A stretch of 42,414 bases of DNA from a virus: the IMG/VR virus record IMGVR_UViG_3300044613_002069, positions 1 through 42,414 of that record; one strand, 5' to 3'. The translations under genes and the position numbers were made by a program. Positions 3,095-21,511 of the stretch are shown here, piece after piece. A model generated the notes under the pieces. The model was not told where the DNA came from. It made no database searches and saw only the letters and a program-made list of their open reading frames with translations. Numbering within the stretch: position 1 is the first letter of the stretch; the number at the start of each line of letters is the position of its first letter.

Positions 3095-3722
3095 AAAGAC
3101 TCCTGATCTCGCCGAGGCGGTCGGGGTACTGCGTCACATGGACGAAGGCTGGGTCGGCGACGGCTCGCCTGTCGGCCGGGTGGTGGTTCCACTTCTGCGA
3201 CAAGAAATGCGTTCTGTCATGCAACTCCGTCGGTTTGGCGAGCACGGAGTTCGGCCGCCCGTCAACGGGCGAGACGTCGTATCCCATGACGGTCAGCATC
3301 GCCGCCTGCTCCCACCACGGGTGATGAAGGAACTCCGGCCGCATCGTGTCCCAGACGAGCTGGAGCGTCGGAATCATCTCCCTGGTCACAAGCCAGATGC
3401 CGCAGTTCGGAACCGTTCCGCACTCCGTCTCGTGCTCGACGACGGCCTGCCAAGCATCATCTGGCACCTCATCAAGAATGTTTTCCTGCGACCGAAAGAC
3501 CACGACGTCGGCGTCGACCCAGATGACGCGGGCGTAGTCGCGAAGAGCCGCGCCGATGTTGGGCACCTTGACCCACGACGGCGGCGTGGCCCCGTTCGAC
3601 AAGTTGACGCAGCAAAAGTCCATCCCGTGCTTGAGCGCGTAGTCCTCGAGGAGCGGCAGAGTATGCGCCGCGATCCTGGCGAACGAAGTGCCGCACCAGC
3701 CTGTCATCAAAAGGTCGCTCAT
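3078..3722 (-). CDS. Glycosyltransferase, GT-A fold (galactosyl/mannosyltransferase-like)
   Basis: 214 residues from ATG at 3722, overlapping the GT2 gene stop as ATGA. The key motif is VIWVDADVVVF (DxD) near residue 69, preceded by DYALKHGMDFCCVN and followed by CGIWLVTREM and PWWEQAAMLTVM, the order seen in GT34-type alpha-galactosyl/mannosyltransferases (GMA12/MNN10) and related nucleotide-diphospho-sugar transferases. It has no membrane segment. The stop lies inside the next gene (overlap of 17 bases). It probably adds a hexose to an acceptor made or bound by its neighbours. Substrate and acceptor are unknown. Confidence 0.8.
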   Translation of the reverse strand: MSDLLMTGWCGTSFARIAAHTLPLLEDYALKHGMDFCCVNLSNGATPPSWVKVPNIGAALRDYARVIWVDADVVVFRSQENILDEVPDDAWQAVVEHETECGTVPNCGIWLVTREMIPTLQLVWDTMRPEFLHHPWWEQAAMLTVMGYDVSPVDGRPNSVLAKPTELHDRTHFLSQKWNHHPADRRAVADPAFVHVTQYPDRLGEIRSLCANAT

Positions 3723-4480
3723 GGCGAGAATGTCACTCCCCTGATGTGATCGATGATGCCCGGCCTCCGAAGCCAAGCATTTGTGGCGTCGGATAGCGCC
3801 GCCTTTGCGTCGGTGCTGAAGAGTATCTCCTGGTGGTAACTCGGCTTCTCCTGCGCGACCACGAAGCCGCCGTGAACTTCTGGGACATAGACGCACCCTT
3901 CACGCAGCGCCGCAACGGTGTACCCGATCGAGTCAGACCACGGGCCGAGCCGCCAGTAATCCTCGCTGTGAAGCCAGAGCAGGAGATCGCGCCTGATCGC
4001 AGCGCCCACGCCGCATTCATTTCTGAATCCGGGGTTCGCCAGCACGCGACTGCGAAACTGCTCGCCCGAAAGCCTCGTCGTCTCGGCGTACCCGTACCTG
4101 CGAACGTCAATCTGCCGCGGCGGGTCGCCCTCCTGTAGAAGGGCGTAGTCGCTCCACGCCACCCCCGGCAGGTCGCCTGGAGCTGATTTCACTGCGGCGG
4201 CAAAGTCGCCGTACAGCACGTCGTCCGCGCCCATGCACACGACGTAGTCCGACGAGAGCGACTCAAACACCGGCCCCATCGCCTGAACCCAGTTATCCGA
4301 CTTCTCTGCGTGCGACACGGTTCTGACGGGGTACGATTCGGCCACCGCGAGGCTATTGTCGGTGCTTGCGTCGTTGATCACGACGACCTCGTCGGCACTT
4401 TGGTTCAACGCGGCTTCGATGGCTCGGCCAAGCGTCTTGGCGCGGTTCCAAACCGGGATGACGACGGCGACGGTGCTCAT
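3719..4480 (-). CDS. Glycosyltransferase family 2
   Basis: 253 residues from ATG at 4480, overlapping the methyltransferase stop as ATGA. The N-terminus is classical GT2: VAVVIPVWNRAKTLGRAIEAAL (residues about 4-25), VVVINDASTDNS near residue 37 and VVCMGADDVLYGDF near residue 79 (the DxD equivalent). The C-terminal half (ECGVGAAIRRDLLLWL, LGPWSDSIGYTVAALREGCVYVPEV) fits the acceptor-site region. It has no transmembrane helices, so it is a soluble enzyme using a nucleotide sugar. The cluster context points to a glycan built on one acceptor by successive enzymes. Confidence 0.88.
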   Translation of the reverse strand: MSTVAVVIPVWNRAKTLGRAIEAALNQSADEVVVINDASTDNSLAVAESYPVRTVSHAEKSDNWVQAMGPVFESLSSDYVVCMGADDVLYGDFAAAVKSAPGDLPGVAWSDYALLQEGDPPRQIDVRRYGYAETTRLSGEQFRSRVLANPGFRNECGVGAAIRRDLLLWLHSEDYWRLGPWSDSIGYTVAALREGCVYVPEVHGGFVVAQEKPSYHQEILFSTDAKAALSDATNAWLRRPGIIDHIRGVTFSP

Positions 4481-5145
4481 GTGTTCGCCCCCGCGCACAC
4501 GGCCAGGCGATAGTGGCACATTGGCCCGAAGCCCGTGTGCAATGTCTCGTCGTTCATGCCAAATACAAAGACGTTGGTAAAGAACCTCTTGAGCGTCGAG
4601 CGGAGTTGGTCTTCGGTCTTGCAGTTGACGTGACCCGCCTTGCTCAGTTCCGAGGCGTGCGACTGCGACTCAAGGGACGGCATCCCGCAGACGAACGACC
4701 CCCGCGGCCCCACGCTCGCGGCGATGTTGCCGAGAAACGGCCCCTCCCTGTTGGGTGGGATGTGCTCCAGAACATCCAGGGCGAACGCGGCGTCGAAGTG
4801 CTTCGGCAGCCTATCGGGCGGATACTGCGGGCCGGTGCGCATGTCGTGCTGACGCAGGAGTATGTTTGCCGGCGGTTTCATCGACCTAGCCTCGTCGATG
4901 AACGCGGCGTCGAAGTCCGTCGCGACGACGTGCCCGACGGCCTGCGCCACCACCCGCGTGGCCCAGGCATCGCCGCAGCCAACCTCCAGAACCCAGTCGC
5001 ATCCCGCCAGCACCCTCGCGACGAACTTGTACCTCGCCAAGGTGAAGCCAAGCCGCTTCGCGTCGGTCGCGTAGGTGTGTGAACTCATGCGGCCTAATTC
5101 CAGGCGGTCGTGACCCCACAGCTCGGCGTACTGCGGCTCGCTCAC
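4477..5145 (-). CDS. Class I SAM-dependent methyltransferase
   Basis: 222 residues from a GTG at 5145 that overlaps the VRR-NUC stop (GTGA) and has GGAGAG upstream. The SAM-binding motif I is WVLEVGCGDAWATRVVA near residue 51, followed by VVATDFDAAFIDEA (motif II acidic residue), and a motif IV-like region FDAAFALDVLEHIPP. It is of the Methyltransf_11/23 type, as found in sugar- and small-molecule-modifying enzymes. Lying first in a set with three glycosyltransferases, it could cap or modify a glycan, but phage enzymes of this type vary widely in substrate. Confidence 0.85.
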   Translation of the reverse strand: MSEPQYAELWGHDRLELGRMSSHTYATDAKRLGFTLARYKFVARVLAGCDWVLEVGCGDAWATRVVAQAVGHVVATDFDAAFIDEARSMKPPANILLRQHDMRTGPQYPPDRLPKHFDAAFALDVLEHIPPNREGPFLGNIAASVGPRGSFVCGMPSLESQSHASELSKAGHVNCKTEDQLRSTLKRFFTNVFVFGMNDETLHTGFGPMCHYRLAVCAGANT

Positions 5146-5432
5146 CCGAGGCTCTCCAAAAATGCTTTGGCGTCGCCGGCCGACCGCACGACGGCCACCG
5201 GGCATCCGACCCCAATCAACTCACGCATCCGATGCTCCTGAATCCGCGTCGGCTCCTCGCCCGGCCGCTTCGCCTCGAGCCAGACCGCACGGCCCTCCTT
5301 GATGAGCAAAACATCGGGGAGGCCGGCAACGGAAAACTGGCTGCCGTGATTCTTCATGGCCCAGTAGCCCATCGACCGAGCCACGGCCATGACGTTCGCG
5401 ACGATCGTCTTCTCGAGCGGTGGTTTCTTCAC
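5142..5432 (-). CDS. VRR-NUC domain nuclease
   Basis: 96 residues, GTG start at 5432. An ATG at 5436 is in another frame. The fold signature is clear: NHGSQFSVAGLPDVLLIKEGRAVWLEAKRPG, with the catalytic D and ExK of the PD-(D/E)xK VRR-NUC family, followed by Q and the C-terminal VGCPVAVVRSAGDAKAFL strand-helix. Single-domain phage members are thought to act as Holliday-junction or structure-specific endonucleases. The start is only a few bases after a promoter-like GACAAT at 5439-5444, so the message may be nearly leaderless. It is the first gene of the methyltransferase-glycosyltransferase group. Confidence 0.88.
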   Translation of the reverse strand: MKKPPLEKTIVANVMAVARSMGYWAMKNHGSQFSVAGLPDVLLIKEGRAVWLEAKRPGEEPTRIQEHRMRELIGVGCPVAVVRSAGDAKAFLESLG

Positions 5433-8176: not shown

Positions 8177-8280
8177 TCGTCCCTCGTCATGTAGGGGAAC
8201 AGGGTGCAGTAAAACGCCGCCCCGACGAGAACGAGGAGCGTGCCGACGTTGAGCCAGACGTGAAGGAGGTTGTCGATCAC
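8173..8280 (-). CDS. 35-residue single-pass membrane protein
   Basis: Too short for routine gene finding. The GTG at 8280 overlaps the csrA stop (GTGA) and has an ideal GGAGG 7 bases upstream, and its TGA overlaps the protease ATG, so it is fixed at both ends by coupling. The product is a short N-terminus ([11 protein letters not shown]), one transmembrane helix ([17 protein letters not shown]) and a charged end (PYMTRDE). It could be a membrane micro-protein that assists the protease, or a minimal lysis or holin-like peptide. No homologue known to me. Confidence 0.7.
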
Positions 8281-8441
8281 TTCTTGGCCTCCGCAGGCAG
8301 AAGCTCCGTCCGCATGATCTCCGTATCCGGCGGCGCCTTGATCGCAAGGCGAACGCTGCCGTCCCAAATCTTCGTCACGACGATTTCGATGTCATCGCCG
8401 ATCTTGATGCGCTCTCCGCGCTTTCTCGTCAGAACGAGCAT
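8277..8441 (-). CDS. csrA: Carbon storage regulator CsrA homologue
   Basis: 54 residues from ATG at 8441 with AAAGGAG upstream. It matches CsrA along its length: [18 protein letters not shown] (strand 1 and 2 region), VRLAIKAP and EIMRTELL. The RNA-contact residues L4, R6 and R44 fall at exactly the E. coli positions, and G9, E10, I14, G15, D16 and A36-P37 are kept. CsrA homodimers bind GGA in RNA hairpin loops and leaders and block or alter translation. A phage copy could reset host carbon/virulence regulation or control the phage's own late messages; a hairpin with GGA in its loop in the capsid leader (41901-41922) is one possible target. It heads a coupled trio with a membrane peptide and a secreted protease. 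Confidence 0.93.
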
Positions 8442-8453
8442 GGCTGACTCCTT

Positions 8454-8615
8454 TCAGCGGACTTGGTAATAGCGGCCACGAGCGTGCCGCTCTTCCTCAC
8501 TCCAACGCTTTTGCAGTTTCTTGCAAGCGACGATGATCTCGAGCGGTTTCGGATCGGGCGCTCTCACGCTCGTGCCACCGCGGTGGCCCAGGTTCTCTTT
8601 GAGAGACGATTTCAT
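8454..8615 (-). CDS. 53-residue basic protein with WSxxER motif
   Basis: ATG at 8615 with GGAG 13 bases upstream; the frame ends 12 bases before csrA. The product is basic (MKSSLKENLGHRGG) and ends KKLQKRWSEEERHARGRYYQVR. The WSxxER element is shared with the HTH proteins at 1902-2234 and 5459-5815, but no HTH is present here. Possibly a small regulator or a DNA/RNA-binding peptide. It lies directly ahead of the csrA trio and may be part of that operon. Confidence 0.6.
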   Translation of the reverse strand: MKSSLKENLGHRGGTSVRAPDPKPLEIIVACKKLQKRWSEEERHARGRYYQVR

Positions 8616-8644
8616 TGTGACACTCCATTGTCGTGGTGCGTAGG

Positions 8645-9121
8645 CTATCCTGCGGACTGATTTCTGGCAAGCCACGTTTCGCAGGCGGTTTTGACCGCCG
8701 GCCGCTTGTGTTCCTTGGCTGCCCAGATGACGTAGTCCAGCCCGCGCGGCAAGGCCACGGCCTCGTCGATCGTCAGGCCGACAAATCGGCCGTCTCGGAA
8801 TTGGAACTCCGTTGGCTTCGGCTCGAGGTGGCCTTTGATCACGGGCACCCACTGGCACGTCAGGCAGAAGCAGCACTGGATCAGCCATTCGCCACGGTCT
8901 TCGTGGATGATGTCGTGGGCGCTGCCACGGCAGAGCGTGTCTGCGCACTCGTGGGTGTGGTCGAGGCGTCCGAGGGCTTTGAGGGCAGGCGGGGCGGTTT
9001 GCCCCTTAATAGAATGTCGTTTTTCAGGGGTCTGAAAAACAGCGGAGGGGGGTACGACTTTTTGCGCGCGCGCGCGCTTTTTCGTCGGTTCTTCGGGCGA
9101 AACATCGAAAAGCAGGCTCAT
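8645..9121 (-). CDS. Zinc-binding protein with exonuclease-X C-terminal-like domain
   Basis: 158 residues. The first 50 are low-complexity and basic. The middle holds a cysteine/histidine set (C59, C64, H69, C83, C84, C86, C89) that could bind one zinc. The C-terminus, FRDGRFVGLTIDEAVALPRGLDYVIWAA..H.RPAV..ACETWLA, has the pattern (F.fGk..G.tl.e....dpgYl.Wl......v...v..fL) of the small domain found at the end of exonuclease-X-like nucleases and alone in many phages. It starts 4 bases inside the end of the helicase gene, so a role in DNA processing with the helicase is a reasonable inference. Confidence 0.7.
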   Translation of the reverse strand: MSLLFDVSPEEPTKKRARAQKVVPPSAVFQTPEKRHSIKGQTAPPALKALGRLDHTHECADTLCRGSAHDIIHEDRGEWLIQCCFCLTCQWVPVIKGHLEPKPTEFQFRDGRFVGLTIDEAVALPRGLDYVIWAAKEHKRPAVKTACETWLARNQSAG

Positions 9122-10767
9122 ACGGGAATCTCCATGCGGTAGCGTTCGCGGGGGTCGTGGGCAATCACCAGCTCATGCTTCGCCCTAGTGCAGGCGACGT
9201 ACTCGATGCGGCGCTCCTCGGCGAATCGCACCGGATCGTCCTCTTCGCCCTGGCGAATCCGGCGGCCGATGCTGGACAGGAGCACCACCTTGCTGGCCTC
9301 CTGACCCTTCACGGAATGCACCGTGCCGATGCGAATCTTCGGGCTGCTGACGGCCTCGACGCCGAACCGCTTCGCCGCCCGCACCCACTTCGTGCCGCCG
9401 TCCGGCAGGCCGCTCCACGACCCAGTAGAGATCGCGTCCCGCAGATGGTCCGTCGCCCCAAGGAGCGAGAGGTCTTCTGGGTAGATGCGGTCGAATTGAT
9501 CCGACAGCCCCTTCGACCACCTGGCCTTGCTGCCACGCTCGAGCCACGTCCGGCCGTCCGTTGTCTTGGACGGTAGCATTTCAAGCACGCACGACCACTG
9601 GTCGGCCGTGATCGCCTCGCCGTGCTGGAGCCGCCACAGGCCGCCCATGCCGAGGTCGCGGTTGTAGGCACCATCCTTGGCCTTGACCCGACGAAACGGC
9701 ATCCCGAGGTCTTCCAGGATGTGCTGAATCCTGGCGACGTTCCGATTCGTCCGTGCCACGACCAGCGTCTCGACGTTCGGGTCTAGGTCTTGCAGGTCAT
9801 CCTCGTAGTTCTCGCTCTCCACGACCTTTCCGTCGTGGTCGGCCGGCGCGATCCCTCGATCCCAATAGTCCGGCAGCCGCTGGAGGCACCGCTCGCCGAC
9901 CGCCATGATCGGCGGCGCACACCGCCACGACTTCTCAGCAACGTGCTGTTTCTGGACGTCCCAGCCCATGAAGTGTTCTGCGCTGGCCCCCGCCCACGAA
10001 TACAGCACTTGGTACGGGTCGCCGAGGAGCCAGGCCCATTTGCATGAGTCACCCGTCACGAGCCGCCGGCAGGCCAGGTCGAGCAGCTTGCTGGCATCCT
10101 GGGCCTCGTCGAAAATCCAGCCAACGACATCGTGCGGGATCGTGCCATCGGGGTCGACGTCCGTCGGCCCGACGGCTGGGTCGAACCGCAGCCCGACGAA
10201 CCGGCAGAGCATATCGGTGAAGTCCATGCGGGCGTCGAGACGCTTCGCGGCCTCGTACATCTCGATCCGCTTGATCACCTCGTCGGCCGCCGGAGCCTCC
10301 GGGTCGGAGTCTGCCTCGACAACCTGCCGCAGCGGCACGACAAGATTCCTCGCCAGGCTCCAGTAGTTGAGGCTGGCCGCCGCCACGGGGTCGCCGGCGT
10401 ATAGCTTGACCCCGCCGTCGTCCTCGTCGAAGCAGGACGCCACGTCGCTCCCCAGAGCCTCAGACACCCACTTATCATCCTCCTTCGTGCCGCCGATGAC
10501 CTCGCCCCTGGATACCCCCAGGACGCGATAGGCGACGCTGTGGCACGTCTTGAACCAGCCGTTCCTCTCCAGGTCGGCCGGGTTCATCCCCCAGGCCACA
10601 GCGGCCCTCCCAGCGGCCTCCTGGCGGGCCGCCCTCGTGAACGACGAGAACCCCAGCACGAACGGGTTTCCGTTGACCTCTGGCCGCTCCAGAGCCTTCT
10701 CCAGAATGCCCATCGCACGGGTCGTTTTGCCAGTCCCGGCCCCGCCAACCTCACGCGCTCCTAACAT
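9118..10767 (-). CDS. Superfamily 1 DNA helicase, UvrD/Rep-like
   Basis: 549 residues. Motifs in order: Walker A GGAGTGKTT (residues 8-16), IFDEAQD (Walker B, DEAQ form), GDPYQVLYSWAGA (motif III), WRCAP (motif IV region), GTVHSVKGQEASKVVLL (motif V) and EYVACTRAKHELVIA (motif VI). It is thus a complete SF1A helicase core, slightly shorter than cellular UvrD (about 720), with reduced accessory subdomains. It probably unwinds DNA during phage replication or recombination. It follows the prim-pol gene after a 72-base gap full of inverted repeats and is coupled to the zinc protein downstream. Confidence 0.93.
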   Translation of the reverse strand: MLGAREVGGAGTGKTTRAMGILEKALERPEVNGNPFVLGFSSFTRAARQEAAGRAAVAWGMNPADLERNGWFKTCHSVAYRVLGVSRGEVIGGTKEDDKWVSEALGSDVASCFDEDDGGVKLYAGDPVAAASLNYWSLARNLVVPLRQVVEADSDPEAPAADEVIKRIEMYEAAKRLDARMDFTDMLCRFVGLRFDPAVGPTDVDPDGTIPHDVVGWIFDEAQDASKLLDLACRRLVTGDSCKWAWLLGDPYQVLYSWAGASAEHFMGWDVQKQHVAEKSWRCAPPIMAVGERCLQRLPDYWDRGIAPADHDGKVVESENYEDDLQDLDPNVETLVVARTNRNVARIQHILEDLGMPFRRVKAKDGAYNRDLGMGGLWRLQHGEAITADQWSCVLEMLPSKTTDGRTWLERGSKARWSKGLSDQFDRIYPEDLSLLGATDHLRDAISTGSWSGLPDGGTKWVRAAKRFGVEAVSSPKIRIGTVHSVKGQEASKVVLLSSIGRRIRQGEEDDPVRFAEERRIEYVACTRAKHELVIAHDPRERYRMEIPV

Positions 10768-10790
10768 TTCGGCTCCTTTTTGCCTGTTTT

Positions 10791-10931
10791 GGACGGTTGG
10801 ACGGTCTACCTCAAAAATCGACCGTCCACCCTTAAGTCCTTATGTTTCAACCATTTCCGTCGCCAAGACGGTGGACGGTGAGTGATTTTCGATTTTTGAA
10901 AAAACCTGATCGACCTCCCCCTTTACCGTCC
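10791..10931. repeat. Inverted-repeat cluster (GGACGGT iterons), candidate origin or operator
   Basis: The 7-mer GGACGGT or its complement occurs five times: 10791-10797 (+), 10799-10805 (+), 10821-10827 (-), 10873-10879 (+) and 10925-10931 (-). Around them are a perfect 9-base hairpin (10798-10806 with 10820-10828) and a split palindrome: TCAAAAATCG and ACCGTCCACC at 10811-10830 are mirrored by GGTGGACGGT at 10870-10879 and CGATTTTTGA at 10890-10899. The cluster covers the prim-pol/helicase gap and the last codons of prim-pol. AT-rich blocks amid GC-rich iterons next to a primase and helicase suit a replication origin, but an operator is equally possible. Confidence 0.55.
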
Positions 10932-12633
10932 ATTCGTTTTCGTCGCCCGCCGACATCGCCTCCAGGGCCGCGACCCACTCCTTCGTGAACACGACGTACT
11001 CCAGCCGGCCCGACTGAAAGCGGTGCCTGCGGTGGTCGAAATCCTTGGCCCCCATCGCGTCGAGGAGCCTCATGCGGAGTTTGTTCCGCTCCCCCGGCGC
11101 GACGTCGTGCATCCGGCCGATGTCTTCCCAGACCTTGCCCCACTGGAGCCAGAGTTCGTCCGGCGTCACCCAGCACGGCCGCCCAGACTCGTTCGGCTCC
11201 GGAGCCTCCTCGTTTCGAGGCTGCGTGGCCTTCTTGATCACCTGGATGCAGTAGCCCGCCAACTGGGCGTAACGCAGGCTCGACGAGCCGACGTAGATGT
11301 TGTCTTCCTCGTTGTTTCGCTGGACGAGCTGCTCCATCAATCCGGAGATGCTTTGGCCCCCCGTCTTCTTCGACGCCTCGATGCCTTTCCAGATGCCGTG
11401 CCACTTGCCGGCGTCGCCGTCCAGGATCACGCGGTGCGTGGCCGTGAACACGGTGCTCGCCACCTTGGCTGCCGACCGGAACGTGTCGAACGTCATCTGC
11501 ACGCGACCCCGGCACGGCGTGTTCTCCCAGGCCGGGACGCAGAGGATCACCTCGGGCGGGTCGCCCTTCACGAACTGAATCGACCAGTCGCCGGGGCGGT
11601 AAGCCTCGACGCCGCTGACGTCCATCCGCTCCAGGCCGTGAGACGTGTAGCCCGTTGCCGCAGTCTGCTTCTTTGCGTCAGCCGTGATCTGATCGGCCTC
11701 GGCCCGTACAGAATCTTCCTTCAGGTCAGTAGGCGACGGCTCTGCGCTGACTTCTTGATACTTCCTCCGATAGTGCTCGAAGCACGAGTTGATGACCTGA
11801 AGCGCCTCTTTCGTCGACTTCGGCGGGTGGATGTATTTCTCGTTGGCGTCCTGAATCTCCTTCGTGAGCACCTCGCGACGCTCCGGCTTCAGTGGGTCGC
11901 GGTCGTTCACGATCTTGTTCCACGCCCAGTAGAGGAGAGCCTTGTGTCGCCCCTCGCCGTCGTGAACGTCACGGAACACCAGCGGCCCGCCTCGCGTCGT
12001 AAGCGCGCCGCCGCTCCCCCCGCCGCCGTCGTAGTTCACGATTTGTTTGAGCAGCTCCTTCGGCGTCTCGGCGACCTCGACCTCCTCGATGGATAGCCCC
12101 GGCTTCCAGGCGTAGCGGACGCCGGAGTAATGCCACGACGGGGGCATGACGCTCTGAATCTGACTGCCGCCGCCTCCGATCCGGCACTCGAGGCCGCCCG
12201 GCTCGGCCTTGGAGATGCTCTCCAGGCACTTGTCCCACAGGGTCATCTGGTGCGTCGATCGGCCACTCGTCCACGACGGCGTCTCGAGCCTGTCGATGCC
12301 AAGCGATTGCCGGTAGGCTGCGCCCTCCGGCGTGTCGTTCTCGTTGTCGATTACGCCCGAGCCGACGCCAAGAACGCAGCCAGCGTTAAATGGGATGCCG
12401 TCATCCCAGGCGAGGAGGTCGTCCTCGGTGCGGGCGTATCGCTCCCCCCAGTTCGTGCCGACGGGGTGCTTCCCGGCACTCCGCTCGCCGGACTTGCCTA
12501 CGGCGCACTCCGGGTTGCCGCAGGTGCAGCGGCCGTCGGGCCAGATGCCGTGCAGCCTGACGACGCGAAGACCCTTGGAAAGGTACATCGCGCACGCCTT
12601 GAACATCTCGTCGAAGTCGAATTCAAATGCCAT
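10840..12633 (-). CDS. Bifunctional primase-polymerase (prim-pol/AEP) protein
   Basis: 597 residues from ATG at 12633, preferred over the ATG at 12645 because GGAG lies about 10 bases upstream. The N-terminal 200 residues follow the phage/plasmid prim-pol layout: AMYLSKGLRVVRLHG, a CTCGNPECAVG zinc-knuckle-like insert at 37-46, AGKHPVGTNW (53-62), NAGCVLGVGSGVIDNE (83-98) and later SWHYSGVRYAW. The usual D-x-D metal pair appears as D96-x-E98, an unusual but conservative form. The C-terminal 380 residues have no Walker A, so the helicase step must come from the SF1 or SNF2 helicase neighbours. It ends in helical regions rich in W and R. Likely the replication initiator/primase. Confidence 0.8.
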   Translation of the reverse strand: MAFEFDFDEMFKACAMYLSKGLRVVRLHGIWPDGRCTCGNPECAVGKSGERSAGKHPVGTNWGERYARTEDDLLAWDDGIPFNAGCVLGVGSGVIDNENDTPEGAAYRQSLGIDRLETPSWTSGRSTHQMTLWDKCLESISKAEPGGLECRIGGGGSQIQSVMPPSWHYSGVRYAWKPGLSIEEVEVAETPKELLKQIVNYDGGGGSGGALTTRGGPLVFRDVHDGEGRHKALLYWAWNKIVNDRDPLKPERREVLTKEIQDANEKYIHPPKSTKEALQVINSCFEHYRRKYQEVSAEPSPTDLKEDSVRAEADQITADAKKQTAATGYTSHGLERMDVSGVEAYRPGDWSIQFVKGDPPEVILCVPAWENTPCRGRVQMTFDTFRSAAKVASTVFTATHRVILDGDAGKWHGIWKGIEASKKTGGQSISGLMEQLVQRNNEEDNIYVGSSSLRYAQLAGYCIQVIKKATQPRNEEAPEPNESGRPCWVTPDELWLQWGKVWEDIGRMHDVAPGERNKLRMRLLDAMGAKDFDHRRHRFQSGRLEYVVFTKEWVAALEAMSAGDENEWTVKGEVDQVFSKIENHSPSTVLATEMVET

Positions 12634-15537: not shown

Positions 15538-16098
15538 CTATTTCACTTTTTTCGAGCGTGGCCTGCCGACCTTCGTCCCGGCGGCTTCTGCGGCCTTCGT
15601 GACGCGGGCGTGCTCGAGACACGACCGCCGGGAGATAATCCAGTTCCTGGCCCCGGTCTTCACGCCCCGCGGATTCCACGGGACGCGGCCCGTGATCTTT
15701 CCCTGCCCGATGAGGCGGGCGATGAGCGACGGGTGGACACCTAGTATGTCGGCTGCCTCAGCCAGCGTAATCGCGTCGTCAAAGGCGATCGGAACCTTCA
15801 CGGCCTTGATCCGGCGGATCGCCTCGGGCCGCAGGTGGAGCCACGCCCTGGGCCGCCGCTCCGTCTTCCCGCCGCGGGCGGCGCATTTTTCCTCGTAGTC
15901 CTGGTAATTTGCCTCGCACTCAGCCCCGTCGTAGATCGACACGAACCGCGTCGGATCGTCGGAATAGGCCGACGTCATCACCATGCGGGCTGTGAGGACG
16001 CCTTTCGCGGTCAGCTTCTGGGGCTGGCCGAAGTGGACGCCCATGAGGGCAGCGGCCTCGTAGGAGCCGAGAGCTTGGTCATAGAATTTCTTTGCCAT
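15538..16098 (-). CDS. Excisionase-like HTH DNA-binding protein
   Basis: 186 residues from ATG at 16098 (TTG at 16107 is an alternative). The C-terminal part carries a MerR/excisionase-type winged HTH: ITLAEAADILGVHPSLIARLIGQGKITG, followed by NWIISRRSCLEHA and a basic tail (GRPRSKKVK). The N-terminal 110 residues (SYEAAALMGVHFGQPQKLTAKGVL) could hold a second HTH-like unit. It is divergent from the plus-strand lysogeny genes, with a paired-arm hairpin between them. Excision factor or lysogeny switch regulator is most likely. Confidence 0.75.
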   Translation of the reverse strand: MAKKFYDQALGSYEAAALMGVHFGQPQKLTAKGVLTARMVMTSAYSDDPTRFVSIYDGAECEANYQDYEEKCAARGGKTERRPRAWLHLRPEAIRRIKAVKVPIAFDDAITLAEAADILGVHPSLIARLIGQGKITGRVPWNPRGVKTGARNWIISRRSCLEHARVTKAAEAAGTKVGRPRSKKVK

Positions 16099-16113
16099 CT
16101 TTCCCAATCAGGT

Positions 16114-16236: not shown

Positions 16237-16446
16237 ATGGCCGCAAAACGATGGATCGTAGTGATTGATTGGGTTGACGGTGACGTGTCCGATTCTGACG
16301 AGGTTGTGGTCGTTTGCCAAGACGACGAGACGGCGATTAGCAGAGCCAAGGCCAAATGGCGAATGATCATCGGTGCCCAGTGGCCTCACTGCCGAATCAA
16401 AAAAGTTGAAATCCTAACTCCAGCACGGCTGCGGAGTTTTGCCTAG
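16237..16446 (+). CDS. Small plus-strand protein of the lysogeny region
   Basis: 69 residues from ATG at 16237, chosen over an in-frame ATG at 16204 because AAGGAGG lies 8 bases upstream. The product is beta-rich then basic helix: RWIVVIDWVDGDVSDSDEVVVVCQDDETAISRAKAKWRMI, ending HCRIKKVEILTPARL. It is one of only two clear plus-strand genes in the window, directly before a recombinase. Family unknown; it could be a small regulator of that recombinase or of the lysogeny switch. Confidence 0.65.
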   Translation: MAAKRWIVVIDWVDGDVSDSDEVVVVCQDDETAISRAKAKWRMIIGAQWPHCRIKKVEILTPARLRSFA

Positions 16447-16454
16447 TTCGCACG

Positions 16455-16499
16455 GAGGTGGCACTTTTAGGGGGCGGCCCCCCAAGTGATGAGCACCTC
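16455..16499 (+). other. Nested hairpin next to the plus-strand recombinase
   Basis: Three stacked stems: GAGGTG (16455-16460) with CACCTC (16494-16499), CACTT (16462-16466) with AAGTG (16484-16488), and GGGGG (16470-16474) with CCCCC (16478-16482). The structure fills the gap between the stop of the 69-residue gene and the recombinase ATG at 16502, and it hides the only purine-rich ribosome site (GGAGGTG). It may be a translation switch, a terminator without a U tract, or a folded recombination site. Confidence 0.6.
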
Positions 16500-16501
16500 T
16501 G

Positions 16502-17380
16502 ATGCTACTCCGCGACCTCCTTCGCGACGTTTACGCGCCGCTGAAGGGCATCTGCGACCGCACGATCGAACTGTACCAGTTCACCATCGACGCATACGCG
16601 CAAGTGCTCGGCCGCGAGCCGACGCTCGCCGACCTCGAGGAGCTGTCGGTGGCGAGATTCCTCGCCCACCGCGTGCGGACGCGATCGCCGGCCACTGCCG
16701 CCAAGGATCGCAGCCAGCTCCGCGCCCTCTGGGAGTTCGCCTCTCGGCGCAAACTTGTCGACACCTGGCCGACGATCCCGCTGATCAAGGTGCCGGAGCG
16801 GGTGCCGGAAGCCTGGGTGACGTCGGAAATGGAGCGGCTCCTGGCCTCTGCGGCGCAGGAAACCACCGCCTACGAGGGCATCCCGGCGTCGCTCTGGTGG
16901 AAGGCCCTGGTACTTCTCGCCTATGACTCAGGCGAGCGCGCGTCGGCTCTGGTCGCCCTCCGGTGGGAGAACGTCCGTGGCTGCAACGTGATCTTCCGGG
17001 CCGAGGACCGGAAGGGCCGCCGCCGCGACATCCTCCGCGAGATCAGCGTTCACACCGCCGACGCGATCCTGGCGATCAAGGGCGACCGATCACCAGGCGA
17101 CCTCGTCTTTCCTTGGCCGCGGTGCCGCTCGTATCTCTGGCGGCGGCTGGAGATCATCCTTGAGCGGGCGGGGCTGCCGGCGGGCCGGAAGGACAAGTTT
17201 CACCGCATCCGCAAGACGACGGCCTCCTACTACCAGGCCGCGGGCGGGTCGGCCCAGTGGCTGCTCGATCACGCCGATCCGGCGACGACTAGGAAATACC
17301 TTGATCCCCGGATCGTGCGGGGGCAGCCCGCGCCGGAAATCATCCCGCCGATTGGTTTGCCTCCAGCAGCCGCGGGGTGA
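16502..17380 (+). CDS. Tyrosine recombinase (plus strand)
   Basis: 292 residues. The N-terminal 90 residues are a SAM-like/core-binding domain (TIELYQFTIDAYAQVLG, SQLRALWEFASRRKL). The catalytic domain holds R146 (YDSGERASALVALRW), K171 (EDRKGRRRD), H234 and R237 (KFHRIRKTTASYY), H257 (LLDHADPATT) and Y266 (TRKYLDP). All active residues look present. ATG at 16502 lacks a good ribosome site because the nearby GGAGGTG sits in a hairpin, so expression may be controlled there. The last 41 bases overlap the tail of the oppositely directed recombinase. It probably catalyses integration or another site-specific exchange. Confidence 0.9.
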   Translation: MLLRDLLRDVYAPLKGICDRTIELYQFTIDAYAQVLGREPTLADLEELSVARFLAHRVRTRSPATAAKDRSQLRALWEFASRRKLVDTWPTIPLIKVPERVPEAWVTSEMERLLASAAQETTAYEGIPASLWWKALVLLAYDSGERASALVALRWENVRGCNVIFRAEDRKGRRRDILREISVHTADAILAIKGDRSPGDLVFPWPRCRSYLWRRLEIILERAGLPAGRKDKFHRIRKTTASYYQAAGGSAQWLLDHADPATTRKYLDPRIVRGQPAPEIIPPIGLPPAAAG

Positions 17381-18176
17381 CTGGCGTCGTCTTCCTGACC
17401 TGACCCCAGTCGATGTACGCCTGGGCGGCGAGCGTGGCCGTCCGGTGGCCCAGATGCAGCGAAGCCTTGCCTGGGGCAACCATCTCAATGTGGGTGGCTC
17501 CGCTCCTTCGCAGCCACTTGCTCGTGCCGTCGAGGCCGCATCGGTCTAGGTGCTCACGCATATGCCTCATTGCCATCCGCCGGCCGCAGGCCCATCCAAG
17601 GATCGACCCGTCGGGGGAGGCCGCCAGCATTGCGGTCACGGCGTCCAGGCAGGCCGGCGAGAGCACTTTGACGATAGGGTCGCCGGTCTTCGCCTGCGTC
17701 CACCGCAGGGTGTCGCCGTCGATGTGCTTTCTGGTCATGGCGAACAGGTCGCCGCGGCGTGCCCCGGCTTCGTAGCCCAGGAGAATCCACGCCCGCAGGA
17801 ACTTGCCGAGGCTCGCGCCGCTGCGAAGTCTCTTTGTGTCGCATTTCGCCGTCATCGCGATTGCGTGCTGGAGTTGCTCGACCGTCCAGGCCCGTGTCGG
17901 CAGCTTCCGCGACTTGATCCGCATGATTCCGCGCGGCATCGCCGGGAGCAGTTCGTTCTCGTAGGCCCACTTCCAGAGCGTGAGCAGGATCGTCCGCTCC
18001 GACCGGCAGGTGAGCGGCGAGATGACTTTCAGTCGCTCCTGGAGGTAGGCGTTGAGCCGCTCCTTCGTCACGACGCGGCAGCGGCCGGCGATTCGTCGGA
18101 CGTTGGCGTCGTAGGTGCCAGAGACAACGCGGGACTCAAGGTATCGGCGGGCGATCTCGATGAACGTGATTTCCAT
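17340..18176 (-). CDS. int: Phage integrase, tyrosine recombinase (minus strand)
   Basis: 278 residues from ATG at 18176 with GGGAGG upstream. It has a short N-terminal arm domain (EITFIEIARRYLESRVVSG), a core-binding region (LTCRSERTILLTLWKWAYENELL), then R140 (EAGARRGDLFAMTRK), K163 (QAKTGD), R223 (KWLRRSGATHIE; the usual box II His is K here), H244 (LHLGHRTATLAAQ) and Y254 (AQAYIDWGQV). This resembles phage and genomic-island integrases. The 3' end overlaps the convergent recombinase. The ribosome site can be paired within a leader hairpin at 18181-18216. Confidence 0.9.
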   Translation of the reverse strand: MEITFIEIARRYLESRVVSGTYDANVRRIAGRCRVVTKERLNAYLQERLKVISPLTCRSERTILLTLWKWAYENELLPAMPRGIMRIKSRKLPTRAWTVEQLQHAIAMTAKCDTKRLRSGASLGKFLRAWILLGYEAGARRGDLFAMTRKHIDGDTLRWTQAKTGDPIVKVLSPACLDAVTAMLAASPDGSILGWACGRRMAMRHMREHLDRCGLDGTSKWLRRSGATHIEMVAPGKASLHLGHRTATLAAQAYIDWGQVRKTTPVTPRLLEANQSAG

Positions 18177-18180
18177 GCTT

Positions 18181-18216
18181 TGTAGCCTCCCTTTCCGTGG
18201 GTGGAGGTAGGCTACA
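18181..18216 (-). promoter_or_regulatory. Leader hairpin that can cover the integrase ribosome site
   Basis: TGTAGCC (18181-18187) pairs with GGCTACA (18210-18216), and the adjacent CTCC pairs with GGAG at 18203-18206. In the minus-strand message this folds the GGGAGG ribosome site of the integrase into the stem. The right arm is part of a 10-base direct repeat, CTACATGACA, found at 18212-18221 and again at 15521-15530. Confidence 0.5.
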
Positions 18217-18252
18217 TGACAGGAATTCGGCGTCAATGGCCCTGCGCGAGGA

Positions 18253-18543
18253 TTACTCCTCGCGAACCAGGGTCACGCCGAACTCGCCGGGCTTTGCTGG
18301 GGGGATCGTGTCGGCAGCGACGAACTCGAACACGGCTGGCTCGCTGACATTGCCGGCGTCATCGACGTCCACGAGGGTCAGGACGACGGCGTCGTTGTCG
18401 GCAAAGCCGTGCTCGCCGAACGAGGTTGCGTCGGCTTCAAAGTCGGCCTGCTCACGGGCCTCGCCGTTTACGGTGACGGACAGGCGCCGAGAGACAACGT
18501 CGGCGTCGACGGCGGGGGCGGCGGAAACAGCGTAGATCAGCAT
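18253..18543 (-). CDS. Ig-like/beta-sandwich small protein
   Basis: 96 residues from ATG at 18543. The composition is beta-rich and acidic: VSRRLSVTVNGEAREQADFEADATSFGEHGFADNDAVVLTLVDVDDAGNVSEPAVFEFVAADTIPPAKPGEFGV. The phrases 'VDDAGNVSEP' and 'DTIPPAKPGEFGV' are typical of bacterial Ig-like or fibronectin-type folds and, from memory, of a family of small phage proteins. It could decorate the virion, though it sits among non-structural genes. A TGCTATACT extended -10 at 18655-18663 may drive it. Confidence 0.7.
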   Translation of the reverse strand: MLIYAVSAAPAVDADVVSRRLSVTVNGEAREQADFEADATSFGEHGFADNDAVVLTLVDVDDAGNVSEPAVFEFVAADTIPPAKPGEFGVTLVREE

Positions 18544-18666
18544 CTGGAGCCTCTGGGTTATGGGGCGAGCGCGAAGACCGACTGGCCTTGTTTGCTTGCG
18601 AACGAGCCTCGCGAGCTGTCGCTCAATTCCGCGACTGAAAGGCCACATAACAACAGTATAGCAAAG

Positions 18667-18924
18667 TCACTTGTGCTGCGGCACCCGTCGGGGCTGGGCG
18701 GGGTGGTCGATGCCGTACATCGCGTTGCCCATGACGCGAACCTCCGAGCTGTCGACGTGCGCAACGCCGCCGCCGTCGAACTGATGGACGAGCCAGACCG
18801 TGTTGATCGACGGGCCGTAGTCGATGAGGAACAGCGCGTGCCCCTCACCCAGCGGCGTCGTGACCCAGATCGGCGGGTTGCATTGGAGGATCATTCGTTC
18901 TCTCGCCGCTGTAGCGCACTTCAT
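18667..18924 (-). CDS. Small conserved-looking phage protein
   Basis: 85 residues from ATG at 18924 (ATGA overlap with the methyltransferase); an internal ATG at 18894 is an alternative. The sequence ILQCNPPIWVTTPLGEGHALFLIDYGPSINTVWLVHQFDGGGVAHVDSSEVRVMGNAMYG is a compact beta protein. From memory, similar proteins occur in many phages as hypothetical proteins; function unknown. Confidence 0.75.
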   Translation of the reverse strand: MKCATAARERMILQCNPPIWVTTPLGEGHALFLIDYGPSINTVWLVHQFDGGGVAHVDSSEVRVMGNAMYGIDHPAQPRRVPQHK

Positions 18925-19814
18925 GCAGCCGCCAACTTGTATGGCTCGACAAGGTGCCGCAGTATGCCTGCGGCCCACGGTGGCGGAAGCAGTGCGCCGC
19001 AAATGCTGAAACGCTTCGTCTTGCTGCCTTGGAATGGCATCCCAGCCCAAGCGCCCTGTAGCACCGCCATCTCGTCTAGCGTCACCTCGAACGATCCAGG
19101 CGCATTCTGGCGAGGGCCGTCTCCAGCCTTGCGGTATCCGGGGGCCGAGACGACGTGCGGGCAGAACGACCGGACGATCGTTGTGGCTGGCCGCTCCTTG
19201 GCCCACTGCGGCAGGTCGGTCCTGTGCGGTAAAGCCTCGGCCGCCGTAATCCACTTCCGCTTCGTTGTCCCGAACAGGTCTGGCCTGGATTGCGGACGCC
19301 TCGCAAACGTCCCTGGCAACGGGGCTGGGTTGATGCCGTTTCTCGTCGCAAACAGGAAGGCCCGCTTACGGCTTTGCGGAACCCCATAGTCGGCCGCATT
19401 GAGAATCCCTGTCCACGCACGGTAGCCAATGTCTCGCAGCCACTCGGCGTATTCATTCCACATTGGCAGCACGGGCGGCACTTCCTCAAAGGCCACGAAA
19501 TCCGGCAGGTGGGCCTCGATGAACCGTTTCGGCTGATAGATCAACAGGCCGCGCTCGTCTGCCAGCCCTCTTTGTTTTCCTGCCTGAGAAAACGTCTGGC
19601 ATGGCGGCGATGCGATCAGCCCGTCTATCTGCTTCCAAGCGTCCACGGGAATATCCCTCACGTCCGCGTGGATGGTTTGTAGCCCAAGAGCATCCCGCGT
19701 CGCGGCGATGTCGGCATCGAACTCGACGCCAACGTCCTCAAACCCAAGCGATCGGAGGCCAAGCGACCAACCGCCTGGGCCGGCGAACAGGTCAACGATT
19801 GTGGGGCCGCTCAT
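18921..19814 (-). CDS. DNA cytosine-C5 methyltransferase
   Basis: 297 residues from ATG at 19814 (ATGA overlap). Motifs: FAGPGG (10-15, motif I), the catalytic loop SPPCQTFSQAGKQRG with C72 (motif IV), AFEEVPPVL (motif VI, ENV read as EEV), YGVPQSRKRAFLFATR (motif VIII) and a motif X-like FSICGALLPPPWAAGIL where the usual GNAVPP is ICGALLPP. The target-recognition region is about residues 160-250. It adds methyl to cytosine in a target site, most likely to protect phage DNA from host restriction. A solitary enzyme: no partner endonuclease gene is seen. The changes in motifs VI and X mean activity should be tested. Confidence 0.87.
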   Translation of the reverse strand: MSGPTIVDLFAGPGGWSLGLRSLGFEDVGVEFDADIAATRDALGLQTIHADVRDIPVDAWKQIDGLIASPPCQTFSQAGKQRGLADERGLLIYQPKRFIEAHLPDFVAFEEVPPVLPMWNEYAEWLRDIGYRAWTGILNAADYGVPQSRKRAFLFATRNGINPAPLPGTFARRPQSRPDLFGTTKRKWITAAEALPHRTDLPQWAKERPATTIVRSFCPHVVSAPGYRKAGDGPRQNAPGSFEVTLDEMAVLQGAWAGMPFQGSKTKRFSICGALLPPPWAAGILRHLVEPYKLAAA

Positions 19815-20482
19815 TCTGGCTTCTCCACCACATAACCCTGGAAGTCGCCGTAGGCAAAAAACAACCACGGGCGAAACGCCGTAAGCATCTGGCAGTCCAC
19901 AGGCCGTAGCACGCCGGCAATCGAAACCTCTTTGGAAACGACGGCTTGTGGTGGCGAACCTGCCCGCAGTTTTGCGGCGGATAAGAGGAGGCGGCTGGCC
20001 GTTGCGTTTCCTCGCTGCTCGATGCGTTCAAGCAAGATCAACGCGCCGCCGGGGCAAACGCTCTGCATGATCCGCTCTACCAGCGACCGGCGTTTCCTGG
20101 GGGCCACAAACCCCAGCGTAAGAAACGACACGGCAACGTCGCACTCTGGTATCTCAATGTCCTCAATGCGAGACGTTATGACGTTCCCAATGCCTTTGAA
20201 CCGGCTCGCCATTTCATGTGACGGCTCGACGTTGACGACCGTGGCGTGCCTTTCCTCGATCACGCTTCGGCAGGCGGCCGACACGTTTCCGGTCGATGCC
20301 CCGATATCAAGCAGCGTTCCGCCGTCCTGCAAATAAAACCGGACCAGATCGGCGACGGCTTCGGTCGCCAATTCGTAGAAGGGCAGTTGCTCGCGGACGT
20401 GCGAGTCAAAATGGCTCGCCACCGATGGCAACTCAAACGACCACTGGGCAGGCGTCTCGAAAGAAGATCGCAGCGCATCCAT
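19811..20482 (-). CDS. CmoA-like SAM-dependent methyltransferase
   Basis: 223 residues. It begins with a region like tRNA cmo5U methyltransferase CmoA (HFDSHVREQLPFYELATEAVADLVRFYL), then motif I GTLLDIGASTGNVSAACRS near residue 58, VVNVEPSHEMASRF (motif II) and DVAVSFLTLGFVAPRKRRSLVERI (post-IV). CmoA uses carboxy-SAM in tRNA wobble-uridine modification. Phage relatives are known, but their substrate is unclear and CmoA-specific arginines cannot be checked here. It could modify tRNA or a small molecule. It lies between the two C5 methyltransferases, preceded by a 29-base repeat. Confidence 0.8.
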   Translation of the reverse strand: MDALRSSFETPAQWSFELPSVASHFDSHVREQLPFYELATEAVADLVRFYLQDGGTLLDIGASTGNVSAACRSVIEERHATVVNVEPSHEMASRFKGIGNVITSRIEDIEIPECDVAVSFLTLGFVAPRKRRSLVERIMQSVCPGGALILLERIEQRGNATASRLLLSAAKLRAGSPPQAVVSKEVSIAGVLRPVDCQMLTAFRPWLFFAYGDFQGYVVEKPE

Positions 20483-20773: not shown

Positions 20774-21511
20774 TCAGTAGCGCAACGCACTCTCAACGAT
20801 CGCTCGCCCTAGTGCTTCGACCACCTGCGGCACTACGGCGTTGCCGAGGCATCTAAGTCGGTCCACCCTTCTGGAAACCCCATCATCTGCTCTGCGGACC
20901 CAGGATCGAGCGTCCCGCGCCCGACGTTGACCCAAAGCCAGTCGGTCATAGTCATCCCGTCGCTCAACGACCTGCCTTTGGCCGTTCCGTTGCGACTGCC
21001 CCGTGAGTCGCCCGCCACAAGGGTAGGCAATAATCCACACCCGGTCGCGGAATTGAGGGGCACCAACTGCGGCAGCCGGAATACAGTGCCATTCCGCATC
21101 GTACCCGAGCGAGGCCAAGTCTCCGAGAACGTCTCCCATCCCTCGAACAAGCAACGCTGAGACGTTTTCCACAAGGACGAACCGTGGTCGAAGGACGCCA
21201 ATGATCCTGGCGAACTCTGCCCATAGCCCGCTTCGCTCGCCGGCAAGCCCTCGCTTGGCTCCGGCGTTACTGATGTCTTGGCAGGGGAAGCCGCCGCAGA
21301 TGAGATCGACGCCCCAATCTCGGTCGGCTGTTGGGAAAGTCCGCACGTCATCGTGTCGTGGGACGTGCGGCCAATGCTTGGCAAGAACACGGTTGGCGTA
21401 GTCATCTATTTCTACTTGCCACTTGCAGACCATCCCGGCGCGTTCGAGGCCGAGATCAAAGCCGCCGATGCCCGCAAACAGCGACCCGAATGTGAGTGGC
21501 TTCCTTTCCAT
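20774..21511 (-). CDS. DNA cytosine-C5 methyltransferase (compact)
   Basis: 245 residues. Motif I SLFAGIGGFDLGLE (10-23), motif IV GGFPCQDISNAG with C77, motif VI VLVENVSALL (ENV 115-117), motif VIII GAPQFRDRVWIIA and motif X LGNAVVPQVVEALG (222-235) are all present. The stretch between motifs VIII and X is only about 60 residues, so the target-recognition domain is very short; the whole is below the usual 300-plus. The same DNA also encodes a 190-residue ORF in another frame of the same strand. The gene is preceded 10 bases upstream by a 29-base repeat. Likely protects phage DNA; the target sequence is unknown. Confidence 0.88.
   Translation of the reverse strand: MERKPLTFGSLFAGIGGFDLGLERAGMVCKWQVEIDDYANRVLAKHWPHVPRHDDVRTFPTADRDWGVDLICGGFPCQDISNAGAKRGLAGERSGLWAEFARIIGVLRPRFVLVENVSALLVRGMGDVLGDLASLGYDAEWHCIPAAAVGAPQFRDRVWIIAYPCGGRLTGQSQRNGQRQVVERRDDYDRLALGQRRARDARSWVRRADDGVSRRVDRLRCLGNAVVPQVVEALGRAIVESALRY
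20833..21405 (-). CDS. Overlapping-frame ORF inside the methyltransferase gene
   Basis: 190 codons in a second frame of the same strand, wholly inside the C5 methyltransferase. It is not random-looking: TVFLPSIGRTSHDTMTCGL, then SLWKTSQRCLFEGWETFSETW, PRSGTMRNGTVFRLPQLVPL, LLPTLVAGDSRGSRN and near the end MMGFPEGWTDLDASATP. From memory, proteins with these phrases are annotated on their own in many phages, next to or overlapping C5 methyltransferases. The ATG at 21405 has no clear ribosome site, so expression is uncertain. It may be a true dual-coded gene or a by-product of conserved DNA in the methyltransferase frame. Confidence 0.4.
   Translation of the reverse strand: MTTPTVFLPSIGRTSHDTMTCGLSQQPTEIGASISSAAASPAKTSVTPEPSEGLPASEAGYGQSSPGSLASFDHGSSLWKTSQRCLFEGWETFSETWPRSGTMRNGTVFRLPQLVPLNSATGCGLLPTLVAGDSRGSRNGTAKGRSLSDGMTMTDWLWVNVGRGTLDPGSAEQMMGFPEGWTDLDASATP

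Follow-up and report, generated by a model that had tools for sequence, protein, structure and literature searches.

Convergent tyrosine recombinase genes in an uncultured phage lineage: a putative resident integrase and a putative accessory recombinase

The window analysed here is the whole 42,414-nucleotide stretch of the IMG/VR virus record IMGVR_UViG_3300044613_002069 (positions 1 to 42,414), which is linear and probably a fragment. In addition to helicase, exonuclease, tail, neck and major head genes, the window encodes two complete tyrosine recombinases in convergent orientation, designated P1 (16502-17380, plus strand, 292 aa) and P3 (17340-18176, minus strand, 278 aa). Both reading frames are open and have positions 17340-17380 in common, which confirms the two complete genes and the 41-base overlap described in the initial annotation. 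Elsewhere in the window, genes at 3719-5205 (minus strand) weakly matched families of methyltransferases and of GtrB-like proteins for O-antigen conversion; a function in lysogenic conversion is possible.

The deduced P1 protein starts at an ATG codon and matches Pfam PF00589 (E 1.3e-10) together with the SAM-like core-binding domain PF02899. The catalytic residues were assigned as R146, R170/K171, H234-x-x-R237, H257 and Y266, the R-K-H/K-R-H-Y set that together with the family profile identifies P1 as a tyrosine recombinase of the phage integrase type. Every catalytic position is invariant in the 79 rows of the family alignment, one of which ends before the Tyr, and dN/dS by simple NG86 counts was 0.07-0.29. 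Matches to the NCBIfam XerD, XerC and XerA models were all below cut-off; in the XerC/XerD equivalog search P1 scored 53 bits against the 330-bit cut-off for XerD. The AF2 model (pLDDT 88) has two domains, and structural matches were obtained with XerA, lambda Int and Brujita Int.

Divergent from P1 is a gene (15538-16107, minus strand) encoding a 189-aa DNA-binding protein of the excisionase family, which scored 30.5 bits against NCBIfam TIGR01764 ('excise'), above the 28.8 cut-off, matched PHROG_66 with an E value of 8e-4, and has homologues in eight genomes bearing the pair. The P1 side of the locus is therefore composed as an integrase and Xis module, with an excisionase-family gene adjoining the integrase. 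Based on these matches the protein is a candidate directionality factor, and P1 appears already to have one. A small ORF of 80 aa upstream of P1 (16204-16446, plus strand) is conserved in eight genomes and had no family match in Pfam or PHROG. A promoter-like block (TTGCCT...CGCANGGAGGTGGCAC; 16439-16467, plus strand) is kept before most of the P1 genes compared, and the consensus scan made no promoter call there. The block CGCANGGAGGTGGCA, strongly conserved at 16449-16463 and before most P1 starts, could be a promoter spacer or a regulator site.

P3 also starts at an ATG codon, with GGGAGG upstream. No Pfam model matched P3; the match to the PHROG_1 integrase family (E 2.4e-17) and the catalytic set R140, K163, K220-x-x-R223, H244 and Y254 identify it as a tyrosine recombinase of the phage integrase type. 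The XerC/XerD equivalog search gave no match to P3. Structural matches were to lambda Int, XerA and XerH, with an AF2 model of low confidence in the C-terminal 60 residues on which no fine structural claims are based. Both the P1 and P3 models begin at the four-helix core-binding domain, as in arm-less ('simple') recombinases. Thus, the earlier assignment of the two proteins to different subtypes is correct at the level of the family, the sequences being 26% identical over 209 aa and falling in separate families, but both are simple two-domain enzymes without an arm-binding domain. All catalytic residues of P3 are invariant in 24 of 24 family members, including the box II lysine which, as had been noted from the minus-strand sequence, takes the place of His. 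Since the residues are invariant and dN/dS within the pair group is low (0.10-0.27, simple NG86 counts), P3 is conserved by selection. With catalytic residues invariant and dN/dS values spanning 0.07-0.29 for the two genes, neither is a decayed remnant. The best reading of the sequences is that P3 is a family separate from P1, putatively accessory and catalytically competent.

A promoter-like block for P3 (TTGACG, 16 nt, TAGCCT; 18209-18236, minus strand) is kept in the pair-bearing loci G000-G002, G008, G009 and L106 and more weakly in L116/L127; it was not scored as a promoter by the consensus scan. The imperfect inverted repeat TGTAGCCT...AGGCTACA (18181-18216) lies over the -10-like box and ribosome-binding site of P3. 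The arms covary across G000, G002, G008 and L106, with predicted folds of -15 to -17 kcal/mol, and the candidate roles are an operator, an RNA hairpin or a recombinase-binding site. The location of the repeat over the promoter-like block of P3 itself would suit a DNA-binding regulator with a recombinase fold, for which there is precedent in MrpR/YopR of SPbeta, a phage repressor that has the fold and has lost catalysis (PMC10516654). However, Arg and His residues of the catalytic set have been lost from MrpR, whereas the set is complete in each of the 24 members of the P3 family, and a regulatory identity for P3 is considered very unlikely. Upstream of P3 on the same strand are an adjoining ORF of 131 aa (18253-18648) and, close to each other, two separate C5 cytosine DNA methyltransferase genes (18921-19868 and 20774-21511).

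First scans of the viral collection identified seven close P1 loci and twelve close P3 loci, and profile scans identified 80 P1-type and 20 P3-type loci. The convergent pair with an overlap of exactly 41 bp is present in six virus records (G000, G001, G002, G008, G009 and G010) at 71-98% protein identity, and more divergent convergent pairs in L106, L116 and L127 overlap by 8, 4 and 4 bp, respectively. Since the same 41-bp overlap recurs in six virus records, the pair is more than a chance insertion, the outcome that the initial annotation had asked other contigs to decide. The C-terminus of P1 encoded without P3 usually ends near V(I/L)PKV(G/S), and that of the 41-bp group extends into antisense P3. 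Within the overlap, 22 nt (GCCTCCAGCAGCCGCGGGGTGA) are identical in all six records; the frames are offset such that almost any base change alters one protein, and double coding alone may therefore explain the identity. A candidate att core inside 17340-17380 is possible. The invariant block contains CCAGCAGCCGCGG, a string also present in the universally conserved 530 loop of 16S rRNA; the likeness is probably a coincidence in a GC-rich double-coding stretch.

P1 was found without an adjacent P3 in 42 of the 50 distinct P1 rows analysed, a slightly generous count since a few contigs stop soon after P1, and no second recombinase was present in eight fetched records (G003, G005, G007, G425, G426, G427, G430 and G432). 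Most relatives thus have one recombinase and a pair is unusual for these phages, in agreement with the earlier remark that phages normally carry one integrase. The lone-P1 record G430 (L189-L191) and the record G012 (L030-L032) both end in 127-bp direct terminal repeats, which suggests circular genomes of 59.6 and 45.3 kb, respectively. In the phylogeny of the two recombinases, proposed earlier as a check, the P3 genes in convergent arrangement group together (support 91/90, branch not starred), whereas a single clade of pair-bearing P1 genes is rejected (AU p 0.0003) and at least four gain or loss changes of pairing map to the P1 tree. These results indicate that P1 and P3 were not inherited as a unit. 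In G425, a 23-nt remainder of the 3' end of P3 (antisense AYIDWG) comes immediately after the P1 stop codon and runs directly into the homologue of the 131-aa ORF. Judged by its sequence, this scar is a deletion of P3, a plain one within the gene and not a clean excision; in a search for scars among the other lone-P1 phages, only G425/L105 stood out.

Of 29 contigs with P3, 26 have a second recombinase nearby, comprising 21 of the first 24 contigs and five more from an AAA_24 scan. Some of the contigs (G013/G014 and G009/G010) represent an identical or almost identical phage. The other three contigs (G015, G414 and G418) end before the expected place. P3 was thus found only in phages already bearing an integrase, where the flank allows. 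In 15 genomes P3 is directly behind an AAA_24 ATPase, which we take to be Sak4-like, in a leftward operon. The gene families of this operon, assigned in G014 and G011, further include a Cro/CI-like HTH protein, a weak match to DUF1376, a LexA-type HTH protein, a PDDEXK nuclease and a terminase. The integrase of these loci is encoded approximately 2.3-2.9 kb from P3 on the opposite strand, beyond the Cro/CI-like gene, and is either a member of a family designated X, which also has K-x-x-R, or a distant P1-like protein in the same position. The partner of P3 therefore varies between P1, distant P1-like proteins and X. Among the 80 best matches to the ATPases of P3 phages, no locus with sufficient upstream DNA was without a divergent integrase, and P3 was present in 10 of approximately 64 loci with enough downstream DNA, a proportion that, drawn from best matches, probably overstates the frequency of P3; in five of the 10, P3 is approximately 0.7-1.1 kb further downstream. 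P3 is thus optional and comes on top of an integrase that the phage already possesses. The earlier suggestion of a nested element, in which P3 arrived with a small mobile element beside the integrase or is a passing remnant, would account for the patchy distribution and the scar in G425, but neither notable flanking repeats, cargo nor a separable unit was found around P3, the scar is not a clean excision, and P3 is intact, under selection and in most relatives inside the phage early operon. A nested integrative element is therefore regarded as quite improbable.

Near the start of the early operon, G012 (L030, 17991-18027) and G014 (L033, 16698-16734) have an inverted repeat with arms of approximately 11 bp around CGTCAANAG, which contains, on the minus strand, a TTGACG -35-like box. 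It was considered as a recombination core site and rejected, since the -35-like box fits an operator better; the repeat looks like a repressor operator.

The lone P1 genes and the exchange of partners bear on the idea, also raised in the initial annotation and at first our own, that P1 and P3 form a heteromer resembling XerC/XerD in which each protein binds half of one core site and both are needed. The adjoining genes encode two simple Xer-like enzymes in an exactly conserved arrangement, and elements with several essential recombinases exist, as shown by the GInts, three-integrase islands requiring three recombinases (PMC5385486). GInts resemble the present locus in that different tyrosine recombinases are encoded together; they differ in being co-directional island operons with all genes essential, whereas the genes described here are convergent and phage-borne, and the lineage can do without one of them. 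P1 usually occurs alone, the P3 family coexists with interchangeable integrase families, most plus-type integrases are without P3, and the scattered pair-bearing P1 genes do not follow the grouped P3 genes. The heteromer was consequently demoted to an alternative that we consider improbable.

The host of the phages is likely to be found among the Planctomycetota. P1 relatives of 66% and 60% identity are on contigs of Planctomycetia and Planctomycetaceae MAGs, one of which (L148) is itself phage DNA, and distant P1 relatives are present in genomes of Planctomycetota, Rhodopirellula among them; because binning of MAGs is fallible, the assignment is only likely. No P3 relative was found in the GTDB-species collection or among INPHARED phages, and the phages belong to an uncultured lineage to which none of the INPHARED genomes searched is closely related. 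No true P3 match was found among 392 Planctomycetota genomes, the single match, in G127, coinciding with a stronger P1-type match. Distant P1 relatives in three genomes had no clear att repeats. With the surroundings of the pair searched for repeats, the window for tRNA genes and the Planctomycetota genomes for integrated copies, no tRNA was found in the window, and neither a recombination site for either enzyme nor an integrated copy with host flanks was found. No defence-system match was obtained. In the Planctomycetia MAG contig L154, two P1-like genes in tandem (8192-9514 and 10099-11205, plus strand) are near a tRNA-Arg gene (11368-11441, minus strand), which is another paired arrangement and possibly an integrated element. 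Tyrosine recombinases often invert DNA segments, and P3 could in principle invert a segment for phase variation of phage genes. However, the close relatives compared (G000/G001, G416/G417/G419, G015/G016 and G011/G017) are collinear with no inverted segment between them, and no strong repeats or invertible cassette were found near the pair, results that make inversion exceedingly unlikely.

Simple recombinases are without the arm-binding domain through which Xis normally acts. A second enzyme could therefore supply direction, and the initial annotation had raised a split between integration and excision. According to this explanation the labour is divided between enzymes that share an att site: P1 would carry out integration, whereas excision would be driven or biased by P3 produced along with the lytic genes. 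P1 and P3 are both simple recombinases, P3 of relatives is in the lytic-side operon with the integrase on the other side, and P3 was never found without an integrase where the flank allows. A survey separating simple from arm-domain recombinases met Xis only with the latter (PMC8138268). The Brujita group described there resembles P1 in having only the core-binding and catalytic domains, and Brujita Int is among the structural matches of P1; the group has one recombinase, whereas the locus described here has, besides the integrase, a gene of the excisionase family and another recombinase, with K-x-x-R. The excisionase-family gene already beside P1 weakens an excision role for P3, most P1 and X phages are without P3 and presumably still excise, and P3 would need to fit the att sites of different integrases. 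The split is thus weakened, and we consider it an unlikely alternative.

Other phages with more than one recombinase offer partial parallels. Tyroviruses, which infect Bacillus, carry three conserved tyrosine recombinases whose roles are unproven (PMC9703825). As in the present phages, a group of phages has conserved several Xer-like recombinases in intact form, some of them encoded close to replication genes, but tyroviruses have genomes of 160-170 kb, recombinase genes far apart and plasmid-type genes, whereas the Planctomycetota phages have genomes of approximately 45-60 kb, adjacent convergent genes in the lineage of the window, and no ParA found. Plasmid prophages such as B83 also carry two Xer-like recombinases in one temperate phage (PMC8026635); they have a partition system and the recombinases are held to resolve dimers. 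A search here for the ParA family PF13614 found none in 30 records, many being fragments, with ParM, TubZ and other partition types outside its scope. Dimer resolution is best known in the life of plasmid prophages, of which that search gave no sign. In a limited search of the literature, neither the convergent overlapping pair nor the dependent accessory family was encountered.

The best reading of the combined results, to which as a whole we give an even chance, is that P1 serves a temperate Planctomycetota phage as its normal integrase and that P3 is an accessory recombinase with its own site and without obligate partnership with the integrase. Expression of P3 would begin early, in the lytic or induction phase, and P3 would recombine its own site, most likely resolving multimers of the replicating genome or assisting excision, working independently of the integrase and not as part of an obligate heterotetramer. 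In the lineage of the window, P3 lies against the 3' end of the integrase gene with its own promoter-like block; early expression there would follow from the position in relatives and from that block, which the consensus scan does not score. The position in the operon does not by itself prove the function of P3.

In most temperate phages integration and excision are accomplished by one integrase and a directionality factor. Here, a second recombinase that is conserved and catalytically intact rides only with an integrase, yet is often absent or lost. Tentatively, and with somewhat less than even confidence, P3 may represent a family of recombinases that Planctomycetota phages dedicate to the lytic phase and that acts on its own site, a second system added to a working integrase that would resolve replicating genomes or force excision without the logic of arm domains and Xis. 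With two small genes, the role of extra recombinases in phages becomes a testable question.
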